Assembly: GCF_019355395.1 (NCBI RefSeq)
Contig: NZ_CP048829.1
Coordinates: 2,769,001-2,833,000, forward strand
Source: Chordicoccus furentiruminis
GTDB taxonomy: Bacteria > Bacillota > Clostridia > Lachnospirales > Lachnospiraceae
DNA: 64,000 nt
Reading direction: 5' to 3'
Position numbers and translations under genes: made by a program. The notes under the pieces are model-generated. The model was not told where the DNA came from. It searched no databases and was given only the letters and a program-made list of their open reading frames with translations. This document shows, in pieces, positions 38,346-55,268 of this stretch. How positions within the stretch are numbered: position 1 is the stretch's first letter; every line of letters begins with the position of its first letter.

Positions 38346-39047
38346 ATGCTGTATATTCGAGGAGACACACACCGGCAGTTTGCCGGCATCCGGGTATTCT
38401 GTGCGTGGAAAAAGACAAGCAAGGCGGATATTCTGATTATCACCGGAGATGTCGGGATTAACGGAAGAAATTCCAGGCAGGATCGGATTCTTAAAAAGGA
38501 GCTGCAGGAGCTCCCTATCACATTATTCTGTCTGCGCGGCAATCATGACCGGAGACCCTCTTCACTGGGCAGCTATCGGGAAAGCATTCTCTATGGAGGT
38601 GTGGTCTATCGGGAAGAGGAGTTTCCGGATCTCCTGTTTGCCAGGAGCGGAGAGACGTATTCCATGAACGGGCGGCAGATTTTTGTCATTGGCGGCGCCT
38701 CAAGTTCTGATCGCGCGTACCGTCTGGAACACGGGCTGCCCTGGTGGCCAGACGAACAGCTCTCGGAAGCAGAGCGAAGATATGTGGAGCAACAGCTGGC
38801 GCTGCGGGGGTGGAAGGCGGATCTGATCCTTTCTCATACGATGCCGGAAAAATACATTCCGGGAGAATGCCTGCAGAGAAAGAGAGCGACAGGAAATCCG
38901 GATCTGTCCATGGAGAGATGGATGGACCGGCTGGAAGAAAAAACGGCGTACCGGAAATGGTATGCCGGGCATTGGCATGTAGAGAAGCAGGTGACTGACC
39001 GAATGGAAATACTGTATCAGAATTATAAAGAGGTGGAGCATGGATGA
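38346..39047 (+). CDS. Calcineurin-like metallophosphoesterase
   Basis: A 233-residue predicted phosphatase. ATG 38346 is favoured because the family begins with a strand running into GD-H (MLYIRGDTH); an upstream ATG at 38301 has no ribosome site. The dimetal motifs GDTH, GDVG, GNHD (in LRGNHDRR), SHTMPE and GHWH are complete. Its stop overlaps the next gene by eight bases. As the first gene of a set with two Ser/Thr kinases, it may be the opposing protein phosphatase, but nucleotide or other phosphoester substrates remain possible. Confidence 0.88.
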   Translation: MLYIRGDTHRQFAGIRVFCAWKKTSKADILIITGDVGINGRNSRQDRILKKELQELPITLFCLRGNHDRRPSSLGSYRESILYGGVVYREEEFPDLLFARSGETYSMNGRQIFVIGGASSSDRAYRLEHGLPWWPDEQLSEAERRYVEQQLALRGWKADLILSHTMPEKYIPGECLQRKRATGNPDLSMERWMDRLEEKTAYRKWYAGHWHVEKQVTDRMEILYQNYKEVEHG

Positions 39048-40494
39048 CAGAACAGACTGGTCCGTAGAATTTGTTGAAAATGAGAGCAGGCGCATGGAGA
39101 TCATGCGGAAAGGGTTCGCAGAGCATCTTACAAGCAAAAGGGTAAATGAGCTGCTGTTGGAAAATTACTGTGAGGCCCTGTATGCCCGCAATATCTATGA
39201 GGCTGCGCTGATCTACTGCTTTGACCATAAAAAAACGTATGAGGAGTGGAGACAGATGGCCGCTATGTGTGATCAGGCTTACTGCCCGGAGCAGGGGAAG
39301 TCCGGAACTGTCCTTACGCTCTCGGCGTTGCGGGAATATGTGGCAAAGGAGTCGCAGAAGGCAGGAAGCAGCCTTAATACCGCTTTCATCACCCGGGGAA
39401 TGCAGACCGAGCTTGAGAAAACCGAGAGCGATGAAAACTTTATGAGCTTTTTGCTCAAAAATATCGAGAATTTCAGCGCCGTGCGGGAGAAAGCACGCTA
39501 TTATTTTTCAAAATACACCATGCTCTATATCGATGAGAGAATACAAAAGTATTTGTCTGCATGTGAAAAGGTGGATCTTCTCAGGTGCCGGAAGGCAGGC
39601 ATGCTCTCCGAGGAGGAAAAAAGTCCGGAAAAAACGGCGGTAGAGGAGCTCTCTTTTCTGAAACCGCTGAAACCACTGCAACGTTCTGCGGATACGGCGA
39701 AATTTGACACGAAAGGCTATCTGTCCATGGATGAAAAAAAGAAACTGCTGGCAGAAACGTCTCTGACCTCTGGCGGAATCTTTGATGCCATGAACCAGTA
39801 TTATTTCGGTTATATCTCCATAGACTGGCTTGAGCTCTGCCTGGAAATGTATCCGGATATTGAGGAATGGCCGACGGAGACCAGGCGGAAGATCGCGCAG
39901 GCACTAGGCTATATCCGTCCGGAGACTACGCCGGAGGAAGAGGCGCAGATTCTGGACTCTCTGGAAGAAAGGATCATGGAAAAAGAGGTCGAGCTGGAAC
40001 AGCAGTGGGACAGAGCGTATGTGAGAAGGGAGGATGCGGCTGCAGCCTTTGCAGGAGCAGACAAGACTTTCCAGCACGAAGCGGCGGGAGAAACAGCGGA
40101 AAGCATAGCTGACCCCAGGGTACAGGAAAAAAAGGCGACACTGGCATTTCGCGATTTCCTTCTGGGCAGAAAAGACGTCAACCGGAGAACGCTGATTATG
40201 TATCTGATTTTTATCCAGGCAAGGACAGCGCTGACAGAGGAGAACAAAGTTACGGTTCCGCGGCTCAATAAAATCCTTCTGAACTGCGGCTTTTCCCAGC
40301 TGCAGCCGAACCGGGAGTTCGACCGGTTTGTGATGGGATTTTTAAAGGCAGAAGACCCGATCGTCTATTTTCAGCTCTTTGTACAGGACAGATTAAAAAA
40401 CCAGAAGGAATCTGTCCTGTATGCGATCTATGAAAATTCCTACAACCATCAGAAAGAACTTGTACGGGATATGCTCAGGAAAAGGTTGATGTGA
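39040..40494 (+). CDS. Unknown 484-residue helical protein of the kinase cassette
   Basis: I do not recognise this family. The protein is soluble, almost wholly alpha-helical by pattern, rich in Glu, Lys, Arg and Leu, and has no signal peptide or membrane helix. A charged linker (around residues 190-240) divides it into two halves. Residues 300-375 contain acidic repeats (ETTPEEEAQILDSLEERIME). It overlaps the phosphoesterase gene by eight bases and the first kinase gene by one, so all three are made together. It could be the substrate or scaffold for the kinases; this is inference from position only. Confidence 0.75.
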   Translation: MDDRTDWSVEFVENESRRMEIMRKGFAEHLTSKRVNELLLENYCEALYARNIYEAALIYCFDHKKTYEEWRQMAAMCDQAYCPEQGKSGTVLTLSALREYVAKESQKAGSSLNTAFITRGMQTELEKTESDENFMSFLLKNIENFSAVREKARYYFSKYTMLYIDERIQKYLSACEKVDLLRCRKAGMLSEEEKSPEKTAVEELSFLKPLKPLQRSADTAKFDTKGYLSMDEKKKLLAETSLTSGGIFDAMNQYYFGYISIDWLELCLEMYPDIEEWPTETRRKIAQALGYIRPETTPEEEAQILDSLEERIMEKEVELEQQWDRAYVRREDAAAAFAGADKTFQHEAAGETAESIADPRVQEKKATLAFRDFLLGRKDVNRRTLIMYLIFIQARTALTEENKVTVPRLNKILLNCGFSQLQPNREFDRFVMGFLKAEDPIVYFQLFVQDRLKNQKESVLYAIYENSYNHQKELVRDMLRKRLM

Positions 40495-42317
40495 TGGCGA
40501 AAAATACAGGGTACGGCAGATACCTTCCAAACGGCAGTATTCTGTTGGAACGGTATAAGATTATCCGGGCTCTCGGACAGGGCGGGTTTTCCCTCACTTA
40601 TCTTGTTTATGACAGCGATCTGGCGGTTAACGACGCCCTGAAGGAGTGTTTTCCCTCGAAGATGGCAGTGCGGGAGGCGGATGGTAAAACGGTCTCTGTC
40701 CTGCAGGAACAGGAGAAGAAATTTTCACATATCAGGGAGTCTTTCCTAAAAGAAGCGGAGTTCACCTTTGGCGATTATGACCAGACAGGGATCTGCGCCG
40801 TAAAAGACTATTTTGAGGCGAACGGAACCGTCTATATTGTGGAAGAGTATCTTCCGGGAGGCACCTTCAAGGAATATCTGCGGCAGAGACCGGATCACCG
40901 GCTGCCGGTAGAGGAACTGCGGAATCTGTTTCTTCCTGTGATGAAGGGATTGGCCTTCCTGCATGAAAAGGGAAGCATTCATGGTGACATTTCCCCGGAT
41001 AATCTGATGCTTGACGGGCAGGGAAGGATGAAAATTGTGGATTTTGGCTCTTCCTGGCTGTATGCGGAAGAAAAGAAAAATTACAGAACCTGCACGCTCA
41101 GCTATGCGGCGCCGGAACAATATCTGTCCGGCGGAATCATCGGGCCGTGGACCGATCTTTACGGCCTGTCCGCGGTTCTCTACGAGGCGTTTACCGGAAA
41201 ATCTCCGTACAGCGCGGAAAAACGCCGGAAAGGAAAAGAACTTCGGCCTATCCGGGACTTCGCAGATGTGGAGCCCGGGGTGGAGAGTGCTGTCCTGCAG
41301 GGGCTGCAGCCGGATATTCCGAAAAGGTTTTTCTGGATGGGAACGCTGATGGAGCGCCTTGGAATGGCGAGTGAGGATGTCCAGAAACGACTGCCGAAAA
41401 CAAGAACACAGTGGAGTGAGGCCTGGATACAGGCCGCCATTGCCCCCTCCTTTCTTACCGCAGGGCGGAGACGGATGAGTAAGAGACAGAAAACCCTTTT
41501 GAAGCGGACGGCACTTGCTCTGGCGGTGGGGTATGGCACGCTCCTGGCGGGAACGGCTTTCTATCTGCGGACGCACCCGGTGGAGACGTTCCGCCTGCGG
41601 TTGCGGCTGGCCAGGGTATCTGCACAGCGGCAGAACAACAGTGCCTTTTATCCGGTGGATGCCACTCTGCTGAGAACGCTGAAAGATTATCCATCAACGA
41701 CCACGGATTTTCGTGTCACCTATCATTCTGTGCCGGAAAGCTGGTTCAGGGAGCACCATATTTACGGCAATCAGGACAGTCTGTTTGCTGCGGATGTGGA
41801 TTTGATTGAGGATGTCATGGCGTATACGTACGGTCAGAAGGTCCATTTGAAATCCTCTGAGTTTTCCGGGGAGACGATCTATTATCCGGAATATCAGGAT
41901 CTTGGTGCACATTGTGAGGCAGAGAATACGTACGCTATTCAAACGGATGATGCAAATACTGGCTCAGCCATTAAGATCGACTATGACATCAGGGACAAGC
42001 GGATCATTCATCTGTCGGTCGATGGCTCAAAAGAGGTTGTTTCTGTTTTTCTGCGGGAAGTCTTTCCTTATCTTGACGCGGGAAAATACCTGAACGATGC
42101 GGAAATAGAAGAATTATTTGCGGCGGCGCATCGGCAGAAGAACCATTATAAAGCGAAGTCATCACAAGTAGAAGGAGTCAAGTGGGAGACGAATCGGAGT
42201 GGCTGTCTGTTTCTGGAAGAAAATCCTTTGAATTCGGATCTTTTCTATGACTATTCTCTTGACGTTTCAAGGACAGATGATGTCTTGTTCGGATGGTTTG
42301 GATACCATAACTATTGA
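40494..42317 (+). CDS. Membrane-anchored Ser/Thr protein kinase with variant HGD loop
   Basis: 607 residues. ATG 40494 overlaps the upstream stop (TGATG). The kinase domain spans about 20-290: Gly-rich loop LGQGGFSLTY, ATP-Lys K50 (DALKECFPS), catalytic loop HGDISPDN (163-170) with Gly in place of the usual Arg, and DFG at 183-185. The APE motif appears as APEQY. One membrane helix lies at about 338-358, leaving about 250 extracytoplasmic residues that are not PASTA repeats. That outer domain faintly resembles the next kinase's. A membrane-spanning sensor kinase is the natural reading. Confidence 0.87.
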   Translation: MAKNTGYGRYLPNGSILLERYKIIRALGQGGFSLTYLVYDSDLAVNDALKECFPSKMAVREADGKTVSVLQEQEKKFSHIRESFLKEAEFTFGDYDQTGICAVKDYFEANGTVYIVEEYLPGGTFKEYLRQRPDHRLPVEELRNLFLPVMKGLAFLHEKGSIHGDISPDNLMLDGQGRMKIVDFGSSWLYAEEKKNYRTCTLSYAAPEQYLSGGIIGPWTDLYGLSAVLYEAFTGKSPYSAEKRRKGKELRPIRDFADVEPGVESAVLQGLQPDIPKRFFWMGTLMERLGMASEDVQKRLPKTRTQWSEAWIQAAIAPSFLTAGRRRMSKRQKTLLKRTALALAVGYGTLLAGTAFYLRTHPVETFRLRLRLARVSAQRQNNSAFYPVDATLLRTLKDYPSTTTDFRVTYHSVPESWFREHHIYGNQDSLFAADVDLIEDVMAYTYGQKVHLKSSEFSGETIYYPEYQDLGAHCEAENTYAIQTDDANTGSAIKIDYDIRDKRIIHLSVDGSKEVVSVFLREVFPYLDAGKYLNDAEIEELFAAAHRQKNHYKAKSSQVEGVKWETNRSGCLFLEENPLNSDLFYDYSLDVSRTDDVLFGWFGYHNY

Positions 42318-42439
42318 GATATAGATGCAGCCTGTCTGCGGAACGGAGCAGATGCTGCATGATGGAGAATAGAATCCCTGCGAAGATAAGAGACGGAATT
42401 CACCAAATGGTTTCAGCATAGATTGAGGAAATACGGATC

Positions 42440-44095
42440 ATGGAATTAGGATCGGGGAGCATCCTGAACAACAGATATCGGATCATAAAAAGGCTGGGGC
42501 AGGGTGGTTTTGCCATAACCTATCTGGCCGGAGATCTGCAGATGGAAAAAGAGGTCGTGATCAAGGAGTTTTTCCCCTATACCCTGGCGTCTCGTGACAG
42601 GGAGAGTGTGGCTGTGCTGCCTCCGGCAGGAGAGCTGCAGATAATCTATCAGAAGTACAGACATGATTTCCTGAAAGAGGCCAAAATACAGGCGTCTCTG
42701 TTCGAGATCACCGGAGTTGTCAAGGTGCTCGGATACTTTGAGGAAAATGAGACGGTCTACGAGGTCATGGAATATGTAGATGGCATCACCCTGAGGATGT
42801 TTCTGGAAGAACACGGAGAGCTCCGGGATTTCTCCAGTGTATGGAAACAGATGGAACCCGTTCTGGAGGCTGTTGCGGCGATCCATGAAAGAGGGTATGT
42901 GCACAGGGACATCAGTCCGGATAATATCATGGTCCAGAGGGACGGGCGCCTGAAGTTGATGGATTTCGGAGCCTCCCGTATGTATCAGCCGGATGCGGAT
43001 CGACAGAAGACCATGACCGTTCTCATAAAGGATGGTTTTACGCCTCCGGAACAGTATAATGCGCACGGGAAACAGGGTCCCTGGACGGATATCTATGCGC
43101 TGTCGGCGGTTTTATACTATCTGCTTACCGGCTATACGCCCGAAAGTGCCATGGAGCGACGTGTGCGGGATACCCTGTTTCTGCCATCGGAATTTGGATG
43201 TGAGATCTCTCCGGAGACAGAGATAAAACTGGTGTCCAGGGGACTTGCCCTTGATCCGAAGGAACGGTACCAATCCGTCCGTGAGATGGAGAATGATCTG
43301 GTCGGAGAAGCAGAACAGGTACCGGTAGAAAAGAAAAAAAGAAGCGATTTCCTTCCCTCGGTGGTACTGCTTACTGCCGTCGCCGCCTGTTCTGCTGCTG
43401 CCGCTGTCGCATTTGCAGGTTCACTGCACCTGAAACCACCTGCACAGGCACAGGAGTATGACAGGGATTCTGCGGAAAGCACGGCGCTGCGGAAATTTCT
43501 GCAGAAGCACGCTGTTTCCAAAGAGAAGACTGAAAAGGGTACGGTGTATCGGCTGAAAGAGGCGGATGCAGCGGCTCTGAATCTGACCAGTGATATCAAT
43601 TTTCTGAACATGACACGGGAAGATCTGCTCTCAGCGTATGCACAGGATGGAATCCGGGTGGAAACTGTCTCCGACCAGGCTGATCTCACGGTAACAGAAC
43701 AGTATGGAACAGATTCGGTATATTTTATCAAGACACAGCGATTGTCTGTGCCTCAAAATGACTGCCTTGTGGTGGTGAAATATGACCTCTGTTCGGAAAA
43801 AATCCACCAGATTTCTATTGGTTTTCAGGAGGACACAGAAGATTTCACTGCATTATGCGGCATCAGCAGCGAGACACTGCAAATTGTACAGAACTGTCTT
43901 CAGCTTCCGGACAGTTACAGGGTAGACGAAAAAGAACTTCTGGACGATTTCTCCCGAATGGAAGCTAAGGAACCGGCCTGGATGTCCGGCTTTTATCTTG
44001 GAAGAGAAGCAAAGCTGCTTATCATTCATACTGATGCTTCTTTCGCGCCGACCATTCATTTTGTCTCTTTTGAGGATGGAATATCAGGGCTGTAA
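42440..44095 (+). CDS. Membrane-anchored Ser/Thr protein kinase (canonical HRD)
   Basis: 551 residues with a kinase domain from about 12 to 285: LGQGGFAITYLAG, ATP-Lys K42 (VVIKEFFPY), HRDISPDN (155-162), DFG (175-177) and TPPEQY. A single membrane helix lies at about 307-326, followed by an extracytoplasmic domain of about 225 residues. Two segments of that domain (VVKYDLCSEKIHQISIGF and YRVDEKELLDDF) resemble parts of the first kinase's outer domain. It begins 122 bases after the first kinase gene and ends before a good terminator. Confidence 0.88.
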   Translation: MELGSGSILNNRYRIIKRLGQGGFAITYLAGDLQMEKEVVIKEFFPYTLASRDRESVAVLPPAGELQIIYQKYRHDFLKEAKIQASLFEITGVVKVLGYFEENETVYEVMEYVDGITLRMFLEEHGELRDFSSVWKQMEPVLEAVAAIHERGYVHRDISPDNIMVQRDGRLKLMDFGASRMYQPDADRQKTMTVLIKDGFTPPEQYNAHGKQGPWTDIYALSAVLYYLLTGYTPESAMERRVRDTLFLPSEFGCEISPETEIKLVSRGLALDPKERYQSVREMENDLVGEAEQVPVEKKKRSDFLPSVVLLTAVAACSAAAAVAFAGSLHLKPPAQAQEYDRDSAESTALRKFLQKHAVSKEKTEKGTVYRLKEADAAALNLTSDINFLNMTREDLLSAYAQDGIRVETVSDQADLTVTEQYGTDSVYFIKTQRLSVPQNDCLVVVKYDLCSEKIHQISIGFQEDTEDFTALCGISSETLQIVQNCLQLPDSYRVDEKELLDDFSRMEAKEPAWMSGFYLGREAKLLIIHTDASFAPTIHFVSFEDGISGL

Positions 44096-44161
44096 AGAGC
44101 CCATAGATGCCAGAGCCAGCCAACAGGTGCGGCAGATTGGAAGGAAAGAACTGCAAAACAG

Positions 44162-44192
44162 CGGAGCCGTTCCAACTACGGCTCCGTGTTTT
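44162..44192 (+). terminator. Intrinsic terminator of the kinase operon
   Basis: CGGAGCCG and CGGCTCCG pair around a nine-base loop, followed by TGTTTT. Confidence 0.75.
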
Positions 44193-44285
44193 CTGAAACG
44201 CCTGGAAAAAACAGGGCGTTCGATCAACGTGAAACCAACTGCGCTCTCCGGGACAGGAGGAAGAATCCTGCACTTTCCAGAAAAA

Positions 44286-45257
44286 TCAGAGGTAGTGGGA
44301 AGCGAAGATCCCGTCCACATGGTTTCTGAGTTCTACCTCAGAGCGGATCTGGTCACTGTTAAACTGAATTAATTCCGTGTTAATCGCGATCCGTTCCAGA
44401 TGTGCATTGGTCACCTGCGACGAGTTTGCAATTCTCTGGAGATCGCTGCTCACGGAGCCAATGGCATCCTGCATCTGCTGGATCTGCTGGTTGGACTTGT
44501 TTACAGCCAGGACTAAACTACGCTGGTTCGCCTCGATTCTGCTTAAGTGTGAAAGGATGATGTTCTGGTTGTCTGCGAGATGATCCATTCTCGATTCCAT
44601 GCTGTAAAGATTGTAAGCACCTTCATGCCCCTCAAGGCTGACACATCTTCCTGATGCCAGATACTCGAAAAAGGCAGTGACGGCGGCACGGTTCCGAAAA
44701 GCCGGGTAGATTATATTGTAGTTGTAGATATGGTCCAGATCGTTTTTTATGACGGACAGTTCCGACTGCAGATCATGCAGGCGATTTTGCAATACACCAG
44801 CCAGCCTTTTCGCAGTCTGTGCCTTTTGCACGCTTTTGTCATACTCTTTTTTGCTGGCCACATAAAGATCTCTGTTTTTCTGGTTTTCTTTGGCAATGTT
44901 CTTATTATCCATGTAGATCTTCACGTTTCCTACTGCATCACAGAATCCTTTTATCACAGCGATCAAACTGCCGATTATAACCAGGCCTAAACATGCCTGA
45001 AGAAAAAAGTCGTTCACTAATTCCAGCATATCGCATGCGAGCAGGTAGATAACAACGCCCAATGCAATTTCTTTTAAGGCCTTGTTTCTTTTCCGGGAAG
45101 GTTCGACAGCCTGCACCGGCTCCGGGAGAGGCATGATGTTGTTCAGATTCTGGATTGTGGTTTTTAAATCCAGAATCGCTTTTTCCTGGTTGAACTTCAG
45201 GGTTTCCATCAGATAGACGTCTCCGATATAGTTCTTCAATGTACTGCTGCTTAACAT
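44286..45257 (-). CDS. Coiled-coil membrane protein facing the kinase operon
   Basis: 323 residues. ATG 45257 is chosen for its GGGAGGAG site. Two adjacent membrane helices at about 62-80 and 85-104 are followed by long heptad-rich helices, about 115-180 and 220-295. The region QSLVLAVNKSNQQIQQMQDAIGSVSSDLQRI is representative in style. I cannot place it in a family. It points toward the kinase operon from the opposite strand and lies inside the same repeat-bracketed segment, so it may be a structural or signalling partner. Confidence 0.75.
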   Translation of the reverse strand: MLSSSTLKNYIGDVYLMETLKFNQEKAILDLKTTIQNLNNIMPLPEPVQAVEPSRKRNKALKEIALGVVIYLLACDMLELVNDFFLQACLGLVIIGSLIAVIKGFCDAVGNVKIYMDNKNIAKENQKNRDLYVASKKEYDKSVQKAQTAKRLAGVLQNRLHDLQSELSVIKNDLDHIYNYNIIYPAFRNRAAVTAFFEYLASGRCVSLEGHEGAYNLYSMESRMDHLADNQNIILSHLSRIEANQRSLVLAVNKSNQQIQQMQDAIGSVSSDLQRIANSSQVTNAHLERIAINTELIQFNSDQIRSEVELRNHVDGIFASHYL

Positions 45258-45678
45258 AAAATCTCCTCCCGTCTGAATGACAGAAGTCATATTTATCATC
45301 TGTCATCCGTCTGCATGTTATGTGTTCTTCTATGCTTCCATCATAGCCCCCGCAATTGTCCATTTTTTATGAGCCCGATTTGTTGTGCCTTTCTACTGGT
45401 AGATTACGGAAGCAGGGCGGGAAAACGATTATGCAGATCGGAAACATTCTTTTTACAGATGTTAAAGCCATCACGGTTTTCCTTATGCCAGAATAGAAGA
45501 TGGGAATGGAGCAGAAGATTCAGGACGAGAAGGACATGCCACTGGTGAGAGCAGTACAGACAGGCAATGGAATTGATACTCAGGTTCTTCGGAAAGACAG
45601 GCTGCTGCGCCGCGGTTTTTGCCGCATGGATACTGGTGAGATAAACACGACCGCGGCTGACTTCCGCTTATCTGCATT
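45258..45678. other. Intergenic gap containing the azlD relict
   Basis: Apart from the 48-bp repeat at 45599-45646, I see no gene or clear regulatory site in these 420 bases. Confidence 0.5.
45599..45646 (+). repeat. Right copy of the 48-bp direct repeat (azlD relict)
   Basis: 43 of 48 bases match the 3' end of azlD, including the in-place TAA stop. No azlD frame precedes it, so it is a fragment or a duplicated target. Confidence 0.75.
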
Positions 45679-46917: not shown

Positions 46918-47532
46918 CTACATGGCAAGGCCTAAAACGTCTTTCCTGAAATCATCTACTTTTACATGCGCCGGAACCTCTGTGCCAATTATTTTGTAAT
47001 AGTCCTTAACCTGGCGCGATGGCGTCTCTACTGTAACCATCCCGGAATGATTTCGGAAGCACATCAAAGACTGTGTTTTTCCATACAGTTCGGATGCAGA
47101 TATACCACTGCTATCCATCTTTTTCCTCAGTAGAAGGAGAACTATGGTGTCCATAATATCATGCAAAATCTTTCCTCTAACGGTTTCATCGGTCCACTTG
47201 GATATAGGAAGAAGATCAAGATATTCCTTGCTGGTCTTGAACACTGTTTCAATATCACACTGTCCAAAATAGTCGGTAAGCAGCTGTTCTGGAGTCGTAT
47301 CGATGTTTGAAATCAACACGAAATATCCGTACCTGACTGTGGTCCAGTCCTTATCCTTGTTTTTCATAGCCTCGAATGTTTCGGCATGATTTGCGAGATA
47401 ATCGCTGTATCTCTTCAGGGCATTGTACTGATCTACATAAACATAAGCGTACTCTTTATGTCCGAACAGGGTGATCTTCTTGCGGTGACCGAAGTATACA
47501 TGAAAGTCCATTGGACAGGGAGCAAGGATCAT
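46918..47532 (-). pseudogene. C-terminal fragment of an IS1634/IS4-type transposase
   Basis: About 204 residues equal to the last 40% of such transposases. YFVLISN and YFGQCDIETVFKTSKEYLDLLPI correspond to the YREK-like region with the catalytic Glu. The N-terminal part with the first two Asp residues is missing, and the frame starts abruptly. It differs from the full-length IS1634 transposase at 52580, so it is the relict of another element. Confidence 0.8.
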
Positions 47533-47713
47533 AGCTGTCTAAAAAACGGGGCAACTAAAATCTCTTGTGTCCTTGACAAGGGGTACAATTCAACTACTGC
47601 ACTAGAATGTTATAAAAGAATTTTATATATTGCTATATTAGAGACGGGGGGAATTATTTTTGTTTATGTGTTATGTTCTTTGCCTGTCGGGAACAGGAAT
47701 GGAGGAATGGTAT

Positions 47714-48710
47714 ATGGGAGAGCTTTATATCGCAAGCGACAAACGATATGACCATATGAAGTATAATCACGTCGGAAAATCTGGGCTGAAGTTTCCGGCG
47801 GTTTCACTGGGGTTCTAGCACAATTTCGGAAATAACGGATTTTACGACAATATGAAGGCAATCTGCAGAATCGCTTTTAATAACGGTATTACACAGTTTG
47901 ATCTTGCAAACAATTACGGGCCGGAATATGGCAGAGCCGAAATCAATGCAGGACATATTCTGGAGGAGGATTTCAAGCCGTACCGGGACGAACTTGTCAT
48001 TACAACAAAGGCCTGATATGATATGTGGCCGGGACCTTGTGGAAACTGGGGCAGCAGAAAGTATTTGATGGCCAGCATTGATCAGTCACTGAAGAGGCTC
48101 GGCCTGGAGTATGTCGATATCTTTTATCATCACCGGATGGATCCGGAAACTCCGCTGGAAGAGACTATGGAAGCGCTGGCACAAATTGTTCAGAGCGGAA
48201 AAGCGCTCTATGTCGGCATTTCCAATTATGATAAGGAGCACACGAACAGGCGGTTCGCATCATGAAAGAGCTGCACTGTCCGCTGATTGTGAATCAACGC
48301 AGATATTCTATTTTCGACCGGACAATCGAAAAGGACGGTGAAAAAAATACTGCAGGGAGGCCGGTATGGGTATTATTGCCTTCAGCCCGCTTGCGCAGGG
48401 ACTCCTGACAGATAAGTATCTTCATGGCATTCCGGATGACAGCAGGATTGCAAGAGATCCAAGATATATAAACAAAAGTGTGCTGACCGAGAAGAAGCTT
48501 TCGCAGATTACTGTGCTTAACAAGATAGCGCAGAAACGTGGACAGACACTGGCGGAGATGGCGCTTTCCTGGATACTTCGGGATGGGGATGTGTGTTCCG
48601 TTCTGATTGGGGCATCAAGGCCGTCACAGATTCTGGATAATATCAAGGCTGTTAACCGTACGGATTTTACAGAAGAAGAGCTTCAGGAGATCGACCGAAT
48701 TTCAAGATGA
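47714..48710 (+). pseudogene. Broken aldo/keto reductase (YghZ-like)
   Basis: Joined pieces read MGELYIASDKRYDHMKYNHVG, FDLANNYGPEYGRAE, YVDIFYHHRMDPETP, KELHCPLIVNQRRYSIFDRTIE and GIIAFSPLAQGLLTDKYL, which together are an aldo/keto reductase of the L-glyceraldehyde-3-phosphate reductase type. In-frame stops fall near 47817 (TAG) and 48014 (TGA), and frameshifts occur near 48248 and in an A-run near 48343. It cannot make a working enzyme. Only the last 115 codons are uninterrupted. Confidence 0.88.
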
Positions 48711-52552: not shown

Positions 52553-54247
52553 GTTTTTACCGATATGTTGCCGGATTCCTTATGAATCCGTTACCGTGAT
52601 CTTCGGTTCAAAGTCAAGCTGCTTCAGCATCTGGAGATCCCGTTTTCTGGCGTTTTTGAGATTCCAGTTGCTGCCCCGCCGTTCCATTTTCATGCATCTT
52701 GCCATCAGCAGAATATCATGGACGGAAATGGCGTTGTTGTCGAGTTTCTTTACCGCAGCGATCATTTTTTGATGGATCTGCCCAGTGATAAGCATCAGGA
52801 ACGCGAAGCCCTGTTCTTTATAGTAGTCCGAAATCATAAGGTCATTGAAGTCTGCCTTGTTCTTCATGTATTGGTAAAGCGTTTCGATGCCCCAGCGCTT
52901 TTTATACCTGCTGAACACTTCTTCTGGGGATTTGGCGCAGTTGCTCTGCAGGACGTACACACCGAATGTTTCCTTGCTTTGCTCAAACTTCTCCCGCGTA
53001 TATCCGGAACGCCCGAGTCCCATGCAGTGGTGGTAGTTATAACGGCACTTTTCGTTTTCATCGATGTCACGGAAGACATAAACATAGGTGTTATCCGATA
53101 TCCTCCGGGACATATATTCGATCCTGGCATGCTTCTTGCCGGATCGGAAGTAGAAACTGTCTGTATATTGGATGTCTTTCATGGCATTCCGGAAGATATC
53201 TGTATTGGAAGGAACCGGAATGATGTAAGTGTTGTCGTTCGCCGAAAGAATCTTCAGGTTTTTAGCGCTATAGAACCCCCGGTCCACGACAAACAGGATC
53301 CCGGAGAACGCAAGCAGGTCGGTGATGTCTTCCATCGTGGATTTATCGTTGCATGCCCCGCGATCCATACGTGCAAAAAGCGGCGCACCTGTGTTGATAT
53401 CGTATCCCATGAGAAGGTTTACCTGGTCTTCTTTAAGGCTGTTGAATTTATACCCTGCTTCTCCCAGATCATGATCGTCAGAGCAGCATCGGATGGCATG
53501 GCCATCAATGGCAACCGCGGAAGAAGAATTCAGGATTGCTGCGTTTTCATAGTTAACGACCCTCGTTGTACGGCGGCCGAGATCATCAAGCAGGTTTCCC
53601 AGAGCAGTTTTCCCCATTTTGAAAGGGAGAGACGCATATTCCTGCGACAGCCAGCTCTGTTCGTAATAAGCCTGTACCTGGTCAAGATGGACAAACCCGT
53701 TTGCATACAGGATGCAGGCATACGCAAAGATCTGGGAAGCACGGTCTTGCGAGAAGCAGCTTTCCAATGCAGCGCGGATACCCCTGGCGACTTCACCGAT
53801 CAGGGCATACTGTCCGTACTCAAGAACGGTGATCTCATCCCGGGCCTCATCGCCGGTGTAAAGCTGGTAGTTCCTGTTCGGAATAAAACCGGTGCCCGGA
53901 ATAATGGTGCCAATGCTTTTTCCGGTCTTCTTGCCCCATCTTCCACTGGGAAGGCGCAGGGACTGGTACATATATACGTAATAATGTCCGCTAATGAGCT
54001 TGATCTCAGTACAAGGGCCGGGTCGGTACTGCCTGATCTCCTCAGGAATTCTTGTTTCAGCCATGGTATCACTCCTTGCTCATATCGGTAATATCTCTAA
54101 GGCTATGATGCCATAAACAGGTTGAAATAGTAACTGAAAAATGCCGATTTTACCTGACTTTATGCAGGTCTAAAGGCGCTCAGTTCACCCGCAAAAGATC
54201 TCGTATCGGTAGATCATATCGGTAAATACATCAATGATTGTGCTTAG
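52535..54247 (-). mobile_element. IS1634-family insertion sequence
   Basis: Imperfect inverted repeats of about 33 bp (52535-52567 and 54215-54247), 28 of 33 matching, include the perfect TTTACCGATATG and ACAATCATT blocks. It encodes one intact transposase. No target duplication is visible at the edges, and different broken genes lie on the two sides. Confidence 0.78.
52580..54064 (-). CDS. IS1634-family transposase
   Basis: 494 residues with an intact DDE core. The first Asp is in AVAIDGHAIR, the second in FVVDRGFYS, and the catalytic Glu is in WGIETLYQYMKNK. An AAGGAG site lies eight bases before the ATG. Unbroken and probably functional. It is a different subtype from the fragment at 46918. 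Confidence 0.93.
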   Translation of the reverse strand: MAETRIPEEIRQYRPGPCTEIKLISGHYYVYMYQSLRLPSGRWGKKTGKSIGTIIPGTGFIPNRNYQLYTGDEARDEITVLEYGQYALIGEVARGIRAALESCFSQDRASQIFAYACILYANGFVHLDQVQAYYEQSWLSQEYASLPFKMGKTALGNLLDDLGRRTTRVVNYENAAILNSSSAVAIDGHAIRCCSDDHDLGEAGYKFNSLKEDQVNLLMGYDINTGAPLFARMDRGACNDKSTMEDITDLLAFSGILFVVDRGFYSAKNLKILSANDNTYIIPVPSNTDIFRNAMKDIQYTDSFYFRSGKKHARIEYMSRRISDNTYVYVFRDIDENEKCRYNYHHCMGLGRSGYTREKFEQSKETFGVYVLQSNCAKSPEEVFSRYKKRWGIETLYQYMKNKADFNDLMISDYYKEQGFAFLMLITGQIHQKMIAAVKKLDNNAISVHDILLMARCMKMERRGSNWNLKNARKRDLQMLKQLDFEPKITVTDS

Positions 54248-55268
54248 AAATAAGCTAGGACGCATCCCGAAGCTGATGGATTTTGATCGATATGGCGAAA
54301 TGGATATTCTCCATATCTTTGAAAAGTGCGGATCATACTATCATTTTCTTGTGCGATATGAGAAAGAGTATAATGAAAGACTGCCAGAACGTGAAGCTGA
54401 AGTGATCGAATTCATATCGGGCAAGCTGGCGGACGGAAAAAGGCCGGAGGAACTGATCCTTCTTAAAAACGCGCTGGAAGAACCGGATCATCTCTTTCAA
54501 AAGGATTTGTGTCTTAGAGGCAGCAGTTCCTCGGAGAATAATGCATTGCTGAGGGAAAGTGTCATCAGTGTTCTGACCAACACGTTTCCGACTGAAGTCG
54601 GACGGAAGAAATATGCTGACTGCATACTGATAGAGCCAAATGGTGAGGGGGACTATCGCCTCACACCAGATTTTGTGAAAATGCTTCAGAACACTCGATT
54701 CCGCGCGATCCTTGAGGAACTGCTCGATTTCGGAATTAACAGAAATAAGCGTGACTATGCCGCCCGGTATAAGAATACCGATCTGGTACTGTACCAGAAA
54801 TATACGTATGAGGATGTCTGCCATCTTCTTAACTGGAAGCGTAATGAAGTGCCGCTTAATATCGGCGGATACAAGTATGATGCCAGGACCAGGACGTTTC
54901 CTGTGTTCGTCAACTATGTGAAGGATGAAAATGTAGCGGCTACGCAGCGGTATGAGGATCAGTTCACAGCTCCGGAACACCTGACGGCAATCTCAAAGTC
55001 AGGCCGCACCGTTGAATCTGAGGATCTTCAGAACTTTCTTCATTGTGAAGAGCGGAATATTGCGGTGCATCTGTTCGTGCGGAAAAACAAGGATGATAAG
55101 ATTTCCAAGGAATTTTATTATCTCGGACAGATGTTTCCGGATCAGAAGATGGAGCCGGAGGAATTTGTTCTTCCGGGTACGAGCAAGACGGCCGTCCGGA
55201 TGTACTGGCGTCTTGACCGGCCGGTTCGGGAGGACCTCTACGAGTACATCACGGAGGAAACGATTTGA
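54234..55268 (+). pseudogene. DUF3427 C-terminal part of a beheaded SNF2/DEAH-type helicase
   Basis: About 344 codons remain. LRNKLGRIPKLMDFDRYGE followed by LLNWKRNEVPLNIGGYKYD and VRKNKDDKISKEFYYLG is the DUF3427 region found at the C terminus of large helicases with an N-terminal nuclease or helicase core. That whole core is missing: the frame emerges from the IS1634 terminal repeat. Its former partner is probably the Nudix gene just downstream, as such helicases often neighbour a MutT. Confidence 0.85.

Follow-up and report, generated by a model that had tools for sequence, protein, structure and literature searches.

What does a protein without a recognisable family do among membrane kinases? 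The question is raised by five open reading frames (ORFs) in a 64,000-nucleotide stretch of the Chordicoccus furentiruminis genome (NZ_CP048829.1, positions 2,769,001 to 2,833,000, forward strand; hereafter the window) that encode a calcineurin-like phosphoesterase, a 484-residue protein (UNK484), two Ser/Thr kinases (KIN1 and KIN2) and, facing these four, a coiled-coil membrane protein (Table 1). Coordinates are window positions and L-numbers denote related loci. A first-pass annotation made from the letters alone took the five genes for a complete phosphorylation switch with a resemblance to stress or defence islands. The idea of an undescribed signalling unit of membrane kinases and a novel soluble protein stands, but the five-gene set as a unit does not. 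The locus is read here as a dedicated Ser/Thr kinase signalling pair in which envelope-sensing membrane kinases would act through UNK484, a reading to which a probability of about 0.6 is assigned.

Linkage and co-divergence of UNK484 and membrane kinases

One genome scan yielded 55 relatives of UNK484, mostly from Lachnospiraceae and other Clostridia with two labelled Anaerolineaceae or Chloroflexi, and these and the window make up 56 UNK484 loci. L020 and L046 come from one genome, as do L021 and L049, so that the 55 loci are not all from different genomes, and L007, L008, L009, L122, L123 and L124, which repeat L030, L057, L031, L036, L044 and L010, respectively, are each counted once. Of the 56 loci, 49 contain a kinase ORF and two more, L039 and L050, a kinase fragment, their adjacent partial ORF carrying the extracellular region of a kinase; L026 and L040 have UNK484 at the edge of a contig. 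The neighbours of the 484-residue homologues, which the first-pass annotation had proposed to tabulate, thus show a conserved co-occurrence with kinases (51 of 56 loci are kinase-linked), and occurrence of these homologues independently of kinases in most genomes was not seen. One to three membrane kinases accompany UNK484 in the conserved pair. The nearest kinase is encoded on the same strand as UNK484 in 40 loci and on the opposite strand in nine, and since it may lie upstream, downstream or on the other strand, the association is not one inherited gene order. The C. furentiruminis genome has only six kinase matches, two of them in this cassette. UNK484 is patchily distributed, being present in three of 41 other genomes of the genus and, at full length, in five of 299 genomes that represent the family at roughly one per genus (C. 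furentiruminis included). A further UNK484 locus outside the 56, L121, has kinases one gene away.

The linked kinases are related to one another. The kinase tree has 69 of 78 rows, nine having been removed as fragments or degenerate, and groups the 65 linked kinases together (100/98). The remaining four C. furentiruminis kinases, two of them long-branched, fall outside this clade and are the only outside rows. Within the clade, separate groups are formed by the KIN2 orthologues (98/96), by KIN1 as found in the window lineage (98/95) and by KIN3, an additional kinase present in five loci (100/99). When kinases linked to the companion proteins described below were added, all 64 usable UNK484-linked kinases lay within a clade of 71 (FastTree local support 0.868), the seven other members coming from companion loci. 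UNK484 and kinase distances are correlated (r = 0.80, 39 pairs), and none of 2000 permutations gave a value as high. L048 and L058, which are labelled Anaerolineaceae or Chloroflexi, also carry the pair, and their kinases are nested among Lachnospiraceae ones, either by transfer or because the contigs are mis-binned.

The assignment of KIN1 and KIN2 as kinases, like that of the phosphoesterase, holds in Pfam (Table 1), and both kinases are of the Hanks type. KIN2 has the canonical K/HRD/DFG motifs; KIN1 retains the kinase Lys and DFG, its catalytic loop being non-RD (HGD for HRD). KIN2 has one transmembrane segment at ~308-326 and an extracellular alpha/beta domain at ~343-486, and its AlphaFold2 model (mean predicted local distance difference test score [pLDDT] 83.4, predicted template modelling score [pTM] 0.58) consists of the kinase, a long helix at 305-329 and that domain. 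The KIN1 orthologues of L010-L012 have one transmembrane segment at ~331-369, and the window KIN1, which has an alternative GTG start at 40491, falls below the same hydropathy threshold. Most full-length kinases of the related loci likewise show, by hydropathy, a kinase domain, one transmembrane segment and then an extracellular part, the exceptions being a few below threshold (including the window KIN1 and L036) and L034 with several segments. Several loci have tandem kinases with degenerate copies. KIN3 has lost HRD and DFG, and in L013 and L014 its ATP-binding Lys is replaced by Arg.

PASTA is absent from the 18 families matched at E<=0.01 by 54 kinases (those of the kinase alignment, out of 74 kinase ORFs in the loci), and the window kinases score 114.5 and 172.4 bits against NF033483, below its cut-off of 450; they are not PASTA kinases by these measures. 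Ten extracellular kinase parts had no convincing Pfam match. A SecD-like fold, an idea that came from the look of the sequence, was dropped, as the ten fragments had no SecD match in Pfam at E up to 10 and the C. furentiruminis genome offers no Sec_GG (SecD/SecF) match for comparison. Of 14 control genomes, 12 have a Sec_GG match. Elsewhere in this genome (L119:6840-11377, ~1.751-1.755 Mb) a PP2C gene precedes a tandem pair of almost identical kinases (branch lengths 0 and 0.039), with a WXG100-like protein next to them; the sequence suggests that a kinase gene was recently duplicated in what resembles a type VII locus.

Companion proteins and the origin of UNK484

UNK484 is divided into an XRE-derived N-terminal segment (~2-76), a middle with the motif VREKxRYY and a conserved C-terminal helical part. 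Its AlphaFold2 model is all-helical (pLDDT 81.5, pTM 0.77). No convincing family match was found in Pfam, NCBIfam or PADLOC, nor in a scan of 50 members, where TetR_N (0.03, a single member) was the only helix-turn-helix (HTH) family among the 25 of 53 weak families listed. There was likewise no match in the PDB by sequence or, with Foldseek at E<=0.001, by fold, and a complete five-helix HTH was not found in UNK484. In an alignment of 50 of the 56 sequences (L016, L019, L026, L037, L063 and L064 were excluded as similar to a kept one, short, split or incomplete), T114 is conserved in all 50 and T118 and S105 are each conserved in 49.

Searched with the UNK484 profile, further genomes of the family yield weaker and partial matches; the proteins concerned, here called companions, are mainly of ~150 or ~340-480 residues. 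In profile-profile comparison (hhalign), UNK484 aligns with 13 short companions (97.8%, E 6.9e-13) over its residues 2-76 and with four long, ~400-residue companions (98.1%, E 9.8e-14) over 276 columns spanning residues 18-456; a reverse search from the four long companions recovers the window UNK484 at E 1.8e-6. The short set, 13 proteins of 12 loci, matches as a profile the PDB structures of XRE HTH proteins (C.AhdI at 3.8e-4, columns 33-94; C.BclI at 1.5e-3), so that it is as a profile that these kinase-linked relatives belong to the XRE family. Taken singly, a minority match a Pfam HTH family at E<=1 (HTH_3 in four of 13 and HTH_31 in three of 13, the best at 3.8e-7), and four short companions scanned singly gave 0.05 at best. 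All short-set loci but L209 (11 of 12) have a kinase no more than two genes away. Of the XRE-like profile, the window UNK484 is matched by columns 75-133 only, so that it retains the last portion of the HTH plus the extension that follows and is without helices H1-H3. In 41 of the 50 aligned relatives the place of H1-H3 is taken by 32-61 residues, which may be a degenerate HTH. Judged by these profiles, UNK484 is of one stock with the kinase-linked XRE-type HTH proteins, and the window lineage is one that lost the first HTH helices.

The pairing with kinases extends to the companions. Altogether 42 companion loci were picked by companion similarity and not by the kinase: 18 with the UNK484 profile, 20 with the profile of the four long companions and four as check loci for the short set. 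A kinase lies within two genes in 15, 17 and three of these, respectively (35 of 42), and among the first 38 loci the 32 with a kinase are far above a generous guess of 5%. A PP2C phosphatase adjoins the companion in L168 and L172, and L113 has an FHA gene. In L105 (7897-10272) a 791-residue protein has sigma-70 regions 1.2, 2 and 3 followed by a UNK484-like part, with no region-4 match listed. In L114 (8427-15978) a companion and its kinase lie beside further proteins, which we take from their look to be TadE/TadG pilus parts.

Proposed mechanism and competing explanations

An envelope connection is suggested by flanking genes. One set of secreted proteins has a C-terminal domain in common, and seven of ten scanned match CHAP or M23 peptidases at E<0.001 (some below the Pfam cut-off). 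Members occur in the flanks of 12 of 56 UNK484 loci versus none of 38 companion loci (Fisher 0.0013; L106 has a 46-column piece, and matches of L042, L056 and several companion loci to the long repeat tail of one member are excluded). In Clostridioides difficile, according to one report, the hydrolase CwlA is phosphorylated by PrkC, which also controls its export (PMC8262956). With this precedent and these neighbours, an envelope signal or output is, by analogy, a reasonable guess. In four loci (L014, L017, L018 and L032, Pfam-checked in L018) vWA-like proteins flank the kinase-UNK484 cluster, and three of the four are triple-kinase loci.

It is proposed that KIN1 and KIN2 are single-pass membrane kinases predicted from sequence to have the kinase domain in the cytosol and a sensor part on the outside, and that linkage and co-divergence mark UNK484 as their probable dedicated cytosolic partner. 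The kinases would read an envelope signal, perhaps cell-wall material, outside the cell. KIN2, the HRD kinase, would be the main phosphotransfer enzyme and the non-RD KIN1 would modulate it. UNK484 would be bound or phosphorylated by the kinases, possibly at T114 or T118/S105, and would relay the signal to gene expression or wall remodelling. A broader proposal, tentative and held at somewhat below even odds, is that Lachnospiraceae possess a family-wide circuit of one membrane Ser/Thr kinase and one dedicated companion, a Ser/Thr counterpart of two-component systems. In this view the companions are a single superfamily that arose from DNA-binding regulators of the XRE type; one member at least was joined to a sigma factor, whose last region it replaces, and the UNK484 branch evolved into a large helical transducer whose partners are tandem kinases and pseudokinases that sense the envelope.

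Several observations weigh against these proposals. L025, L043 and L057 carry UNK484 without an adjacent kinase, and seven of the 42 companion loci have no kinase within two genes: L105 (with a kinase at ~3 kb), L107 (where gene calling did not resolve the companion), L112 (with an FHA-ABC protein in place of the kinase), L165, L166 (which starts near a contig end), L169 and L209. Joint vertical descent alone would likewise give the correlation of distances. No HTH can be recognised in UNK484 itself, nor does it match a known structure, and the XRE-like profile also matches an ordinary-looking XRE gene, L197 (3.7e-6), with no kinase nearby, so that an HTH match alone is not specific. The sigma fusion is a single case, 14 other genomes of that genus having given only sigma-region matches. 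The envelope output is extrapolated from relatives, since the CHAP/M23 set is unrepresented at both the window locus and the Bilifractor porci locus.

Alternatively, UNK484 may be a structural adaptor or scaffold rather than a step towards gene expression; it would bring the tandem kinases together at the membrane or connect them with further substrates, exported wall hydrolases for example. In favour of this are the absence of H1-H3 in the window lineage, where only columns 75-133 of the XRE-like profile are matched, the tandem kinases with degenerate copies, the secreted CHAP/M23-type neighbours and the PrkC-CwlA control of export reported in PMC8262956. The alternative is nonetheless rather unlikely, as both the XRE-type HTH relatives and the fusion with a sigma factor suggest a role in transcription for the superfamily at large. 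UNK484 could also regulate the kinases, as an inhibitor, activator or substrate gate, rather than receive their signal; strict pairing and co-divergence suit a binding partner of either direction, and the co-stranding of UNK484 and its nearest kinase in 40 of 49 loci is also in its favour. Since HTH and sigma modules, as present in the relatives, are output modules, such a role is judged unlikely, more so than a scaffold.

The complete switch of the first-pass annotation, in which the phosphoesterase would dephosphorylate the targets of the kinases, draws on the 8-base overlap of the phosphoesterase gene with UNK484 in the window and in L010 and on its position just upstream in L011. It is improbable: these are the only three of 56 UNK484 loci that have the phosphoesterase, relatives of which occur in 49 of 200 family genomes and twice more in C. 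furentiruminis itself. PPP protein phosphatases have the signature GDxVDRG and GNHE. The phosphoesterase has GDVGING and GNHDRR, which do not conform to it, and its sole Pfam match is the general PF00149. The coiled-coil protein is present in three of 56 loci, one of them distant (L062, 19% identity), and has relatives in nine of 299 genomes (C. furentiruminis and B. porci included), the two strongest of which outside the cassette have no kinase in their 19-kb stretches. As both proteins are sporadic, with relatives away from the pair, the five-gene switch is rejected and the two are best taken, from their distribution, as accessory, lineage-specific neighbours. Still more improbable, very much so, is a kinase-based anti-phage defence system. 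The kinase domains score against the PADLOC PD-T4-6 and mad6 models, but the mad6 match is limited to positions 46-262 of 659 (KIN1) and 44-305 (KIN2) and to the kinase domain, and the NCBIfam mad6 scores of 87.2 and 126.8 are below the cut-off of 460. The PD-T4-6 match says little either way because some of these models are barely longer than a kinase domain. Among ten neighbours scanned, the only defence-like one is 9 kb away, an ORF at 54234-55268 that matches the C-terminal end of a model for Type IV methyl-directed restriction enzymes (PADLOC PDLC03658, 5.6e-42, model positions 631-952 of 953). UNK484 has no relatives in viral contigs, plasmids or phages, which speaks against a mobile or phage origin, and the neighbour classes elsewhere are kinases and CHAP/M23, vWA, PP2C and FHA proteins. 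A defence island was therefore rejected as the main reading, the PADLOC scan having covered the window genes and not the related loci.

The proposed pair of kinases and UNK484 resembles known systems in part. Like the PASTA kinases PrkC and StkP, the cassette kinases have an N-terminal Hanks kinase, one transmembrane segment and a C-terminal extracellular sensor part; unlike them, they have no PASTA match, occur with tandem non-RD or pseudokinase copies and have a fixed companion gene. With the XRE-family regulators the link is through the short relatives, XRE-like by Pfam and PDB profile matches, whose final HTH helices and C-terminal extension align with UNK484; the window protein lacks H1-H3 and adds ~400 helical residues. 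PknH-EmbR is a dedicated kinase-regulator pair and is similar in that a Ser/Thr kinase works through one particular regulator. EmbR, an early substrate of eukaryotic-like Ser/Thr kinases, has OmpR-type, BTA and FHA domains according to a review (PMC4601284), and UNK484 matches none of these in Pfam. DYD and ActPs, as outlined in a further article, are bacterial membrane pseudokinase families, degenerate kinases of Gram-positives in which the ATP-binding Lys is in some cases Arg (PMC12599244). The same change is seen in KIN3 of L013 and L014, but the degenerate copies here are extra tandem genes beside an intact HRD kinase and KIN3 lacks HRD and DFG; the terms 'Lachnospiraceae' and 'helix-turn-helix' are absent from the text of that article.

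No description of the kinase-UNK484 pair was found in the open-access PubMed Central literature, for which long result lists were covered in part. The companion superfamily and its fixed kinase pairing appear new, whereas membrane Ser/Thr kinases that act on regulators are already known. Gram-positive Ser/Thr kinases are mostly treated as pleiotropic, without exclusive targets, according to one review (PMC4601284). With a large set of kinase-companion pairs, defined by sequence and drawn from common gut bacteria, there would be particular partners to test for these kinases, and protein families missed by the Pfam, NCBIfam and PADLOC scans would acquire a role. How degenerate kinases regulate an active one could be studied in a natural system, the tandem arrays of active, non-RD and pseudokinase copies.

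Layout, selection and surroundings of the cassette

Table 1. Features of the cassette in window positions, with the evidence for each
Feature	Position	Strand	Evidence
Calcineurin-like metallophosphoesterase, lineage-specific neighbour of UNK484	38346..39047	+	PF00149 2.7e-11
UNK484, 484 residues, all-helical, predicted cytosolic; core partner	39040..40494	+	profile comparison, AlphaFold2 model
KIN1, Hanks-type Ser/Thr kinase with extracellular C-terminal part	40494..42317	+	PF00069 7.9e-32, motifs
KIN2, Hanks-type Ser/Thr kinase, canonical K/HRD/DFG	42440..44095	+	PF00069 1.3e-32, motifs
Terminator-like stem-loop between KIN2 and the facing coiled-coil gene	44161..44187	+ (readable on both strands)	
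Coiled-coil membrane protein, 323 residues, accessory	44286..45257	-	hydrophobic segments

The five ORFs lie where the first-pass annotation had placed them, and its description of the layout was borne out. The phosphoesterase and UNK484 genes overlap by 8 bases (stop at 39047, ATG at 39040) and UNK484 and KIN1 by 1 base (TGA stop and ATG at 40494), both as read in the sequence, and 122 bases separate KIN1 and KIN2. The terminator proposed after KIN2 corresponds to a 10-pair terminator-like stem; the whole region has seven such sites versus a mean of 7.7 in shuffles and thus no excess. An alternative ATG at 45299 would extend the coiled-coil protein to 337 residues. The cassette was said to be lower in G+C than its flanks, which is correct for the left 7 kb (0.497 versus 0.560) but not for the right 7 kb (0.454). 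The cassette lies on a slope into a low-G+C stretch and is therefore not an island in composition. Compared with the B. porci locus, at a high synonymous divergence (dS 0.6-1.3), the ratio of nonsynonymous to synonymous substitution rates (dN/dS) is 0.08 for the phosphoesterase, 0.10 for UNK484, 0.22 for KIN1, 0.17 for KIN2 and 0.135 for the coiled-coil gene; purifying selection acts on all five genes.

To the right of the cassette, the region 46918-48710 has the appearance of decay. The ORF at 46918-47532, which has no Pfam match above cut-off, is from its look presumably a transposase-like remnant, and what we take, again from the look of the ORFs, to be an aldo/keto-reductase-like gene lies in two pieces at 48023-48265 and 48366-48710.

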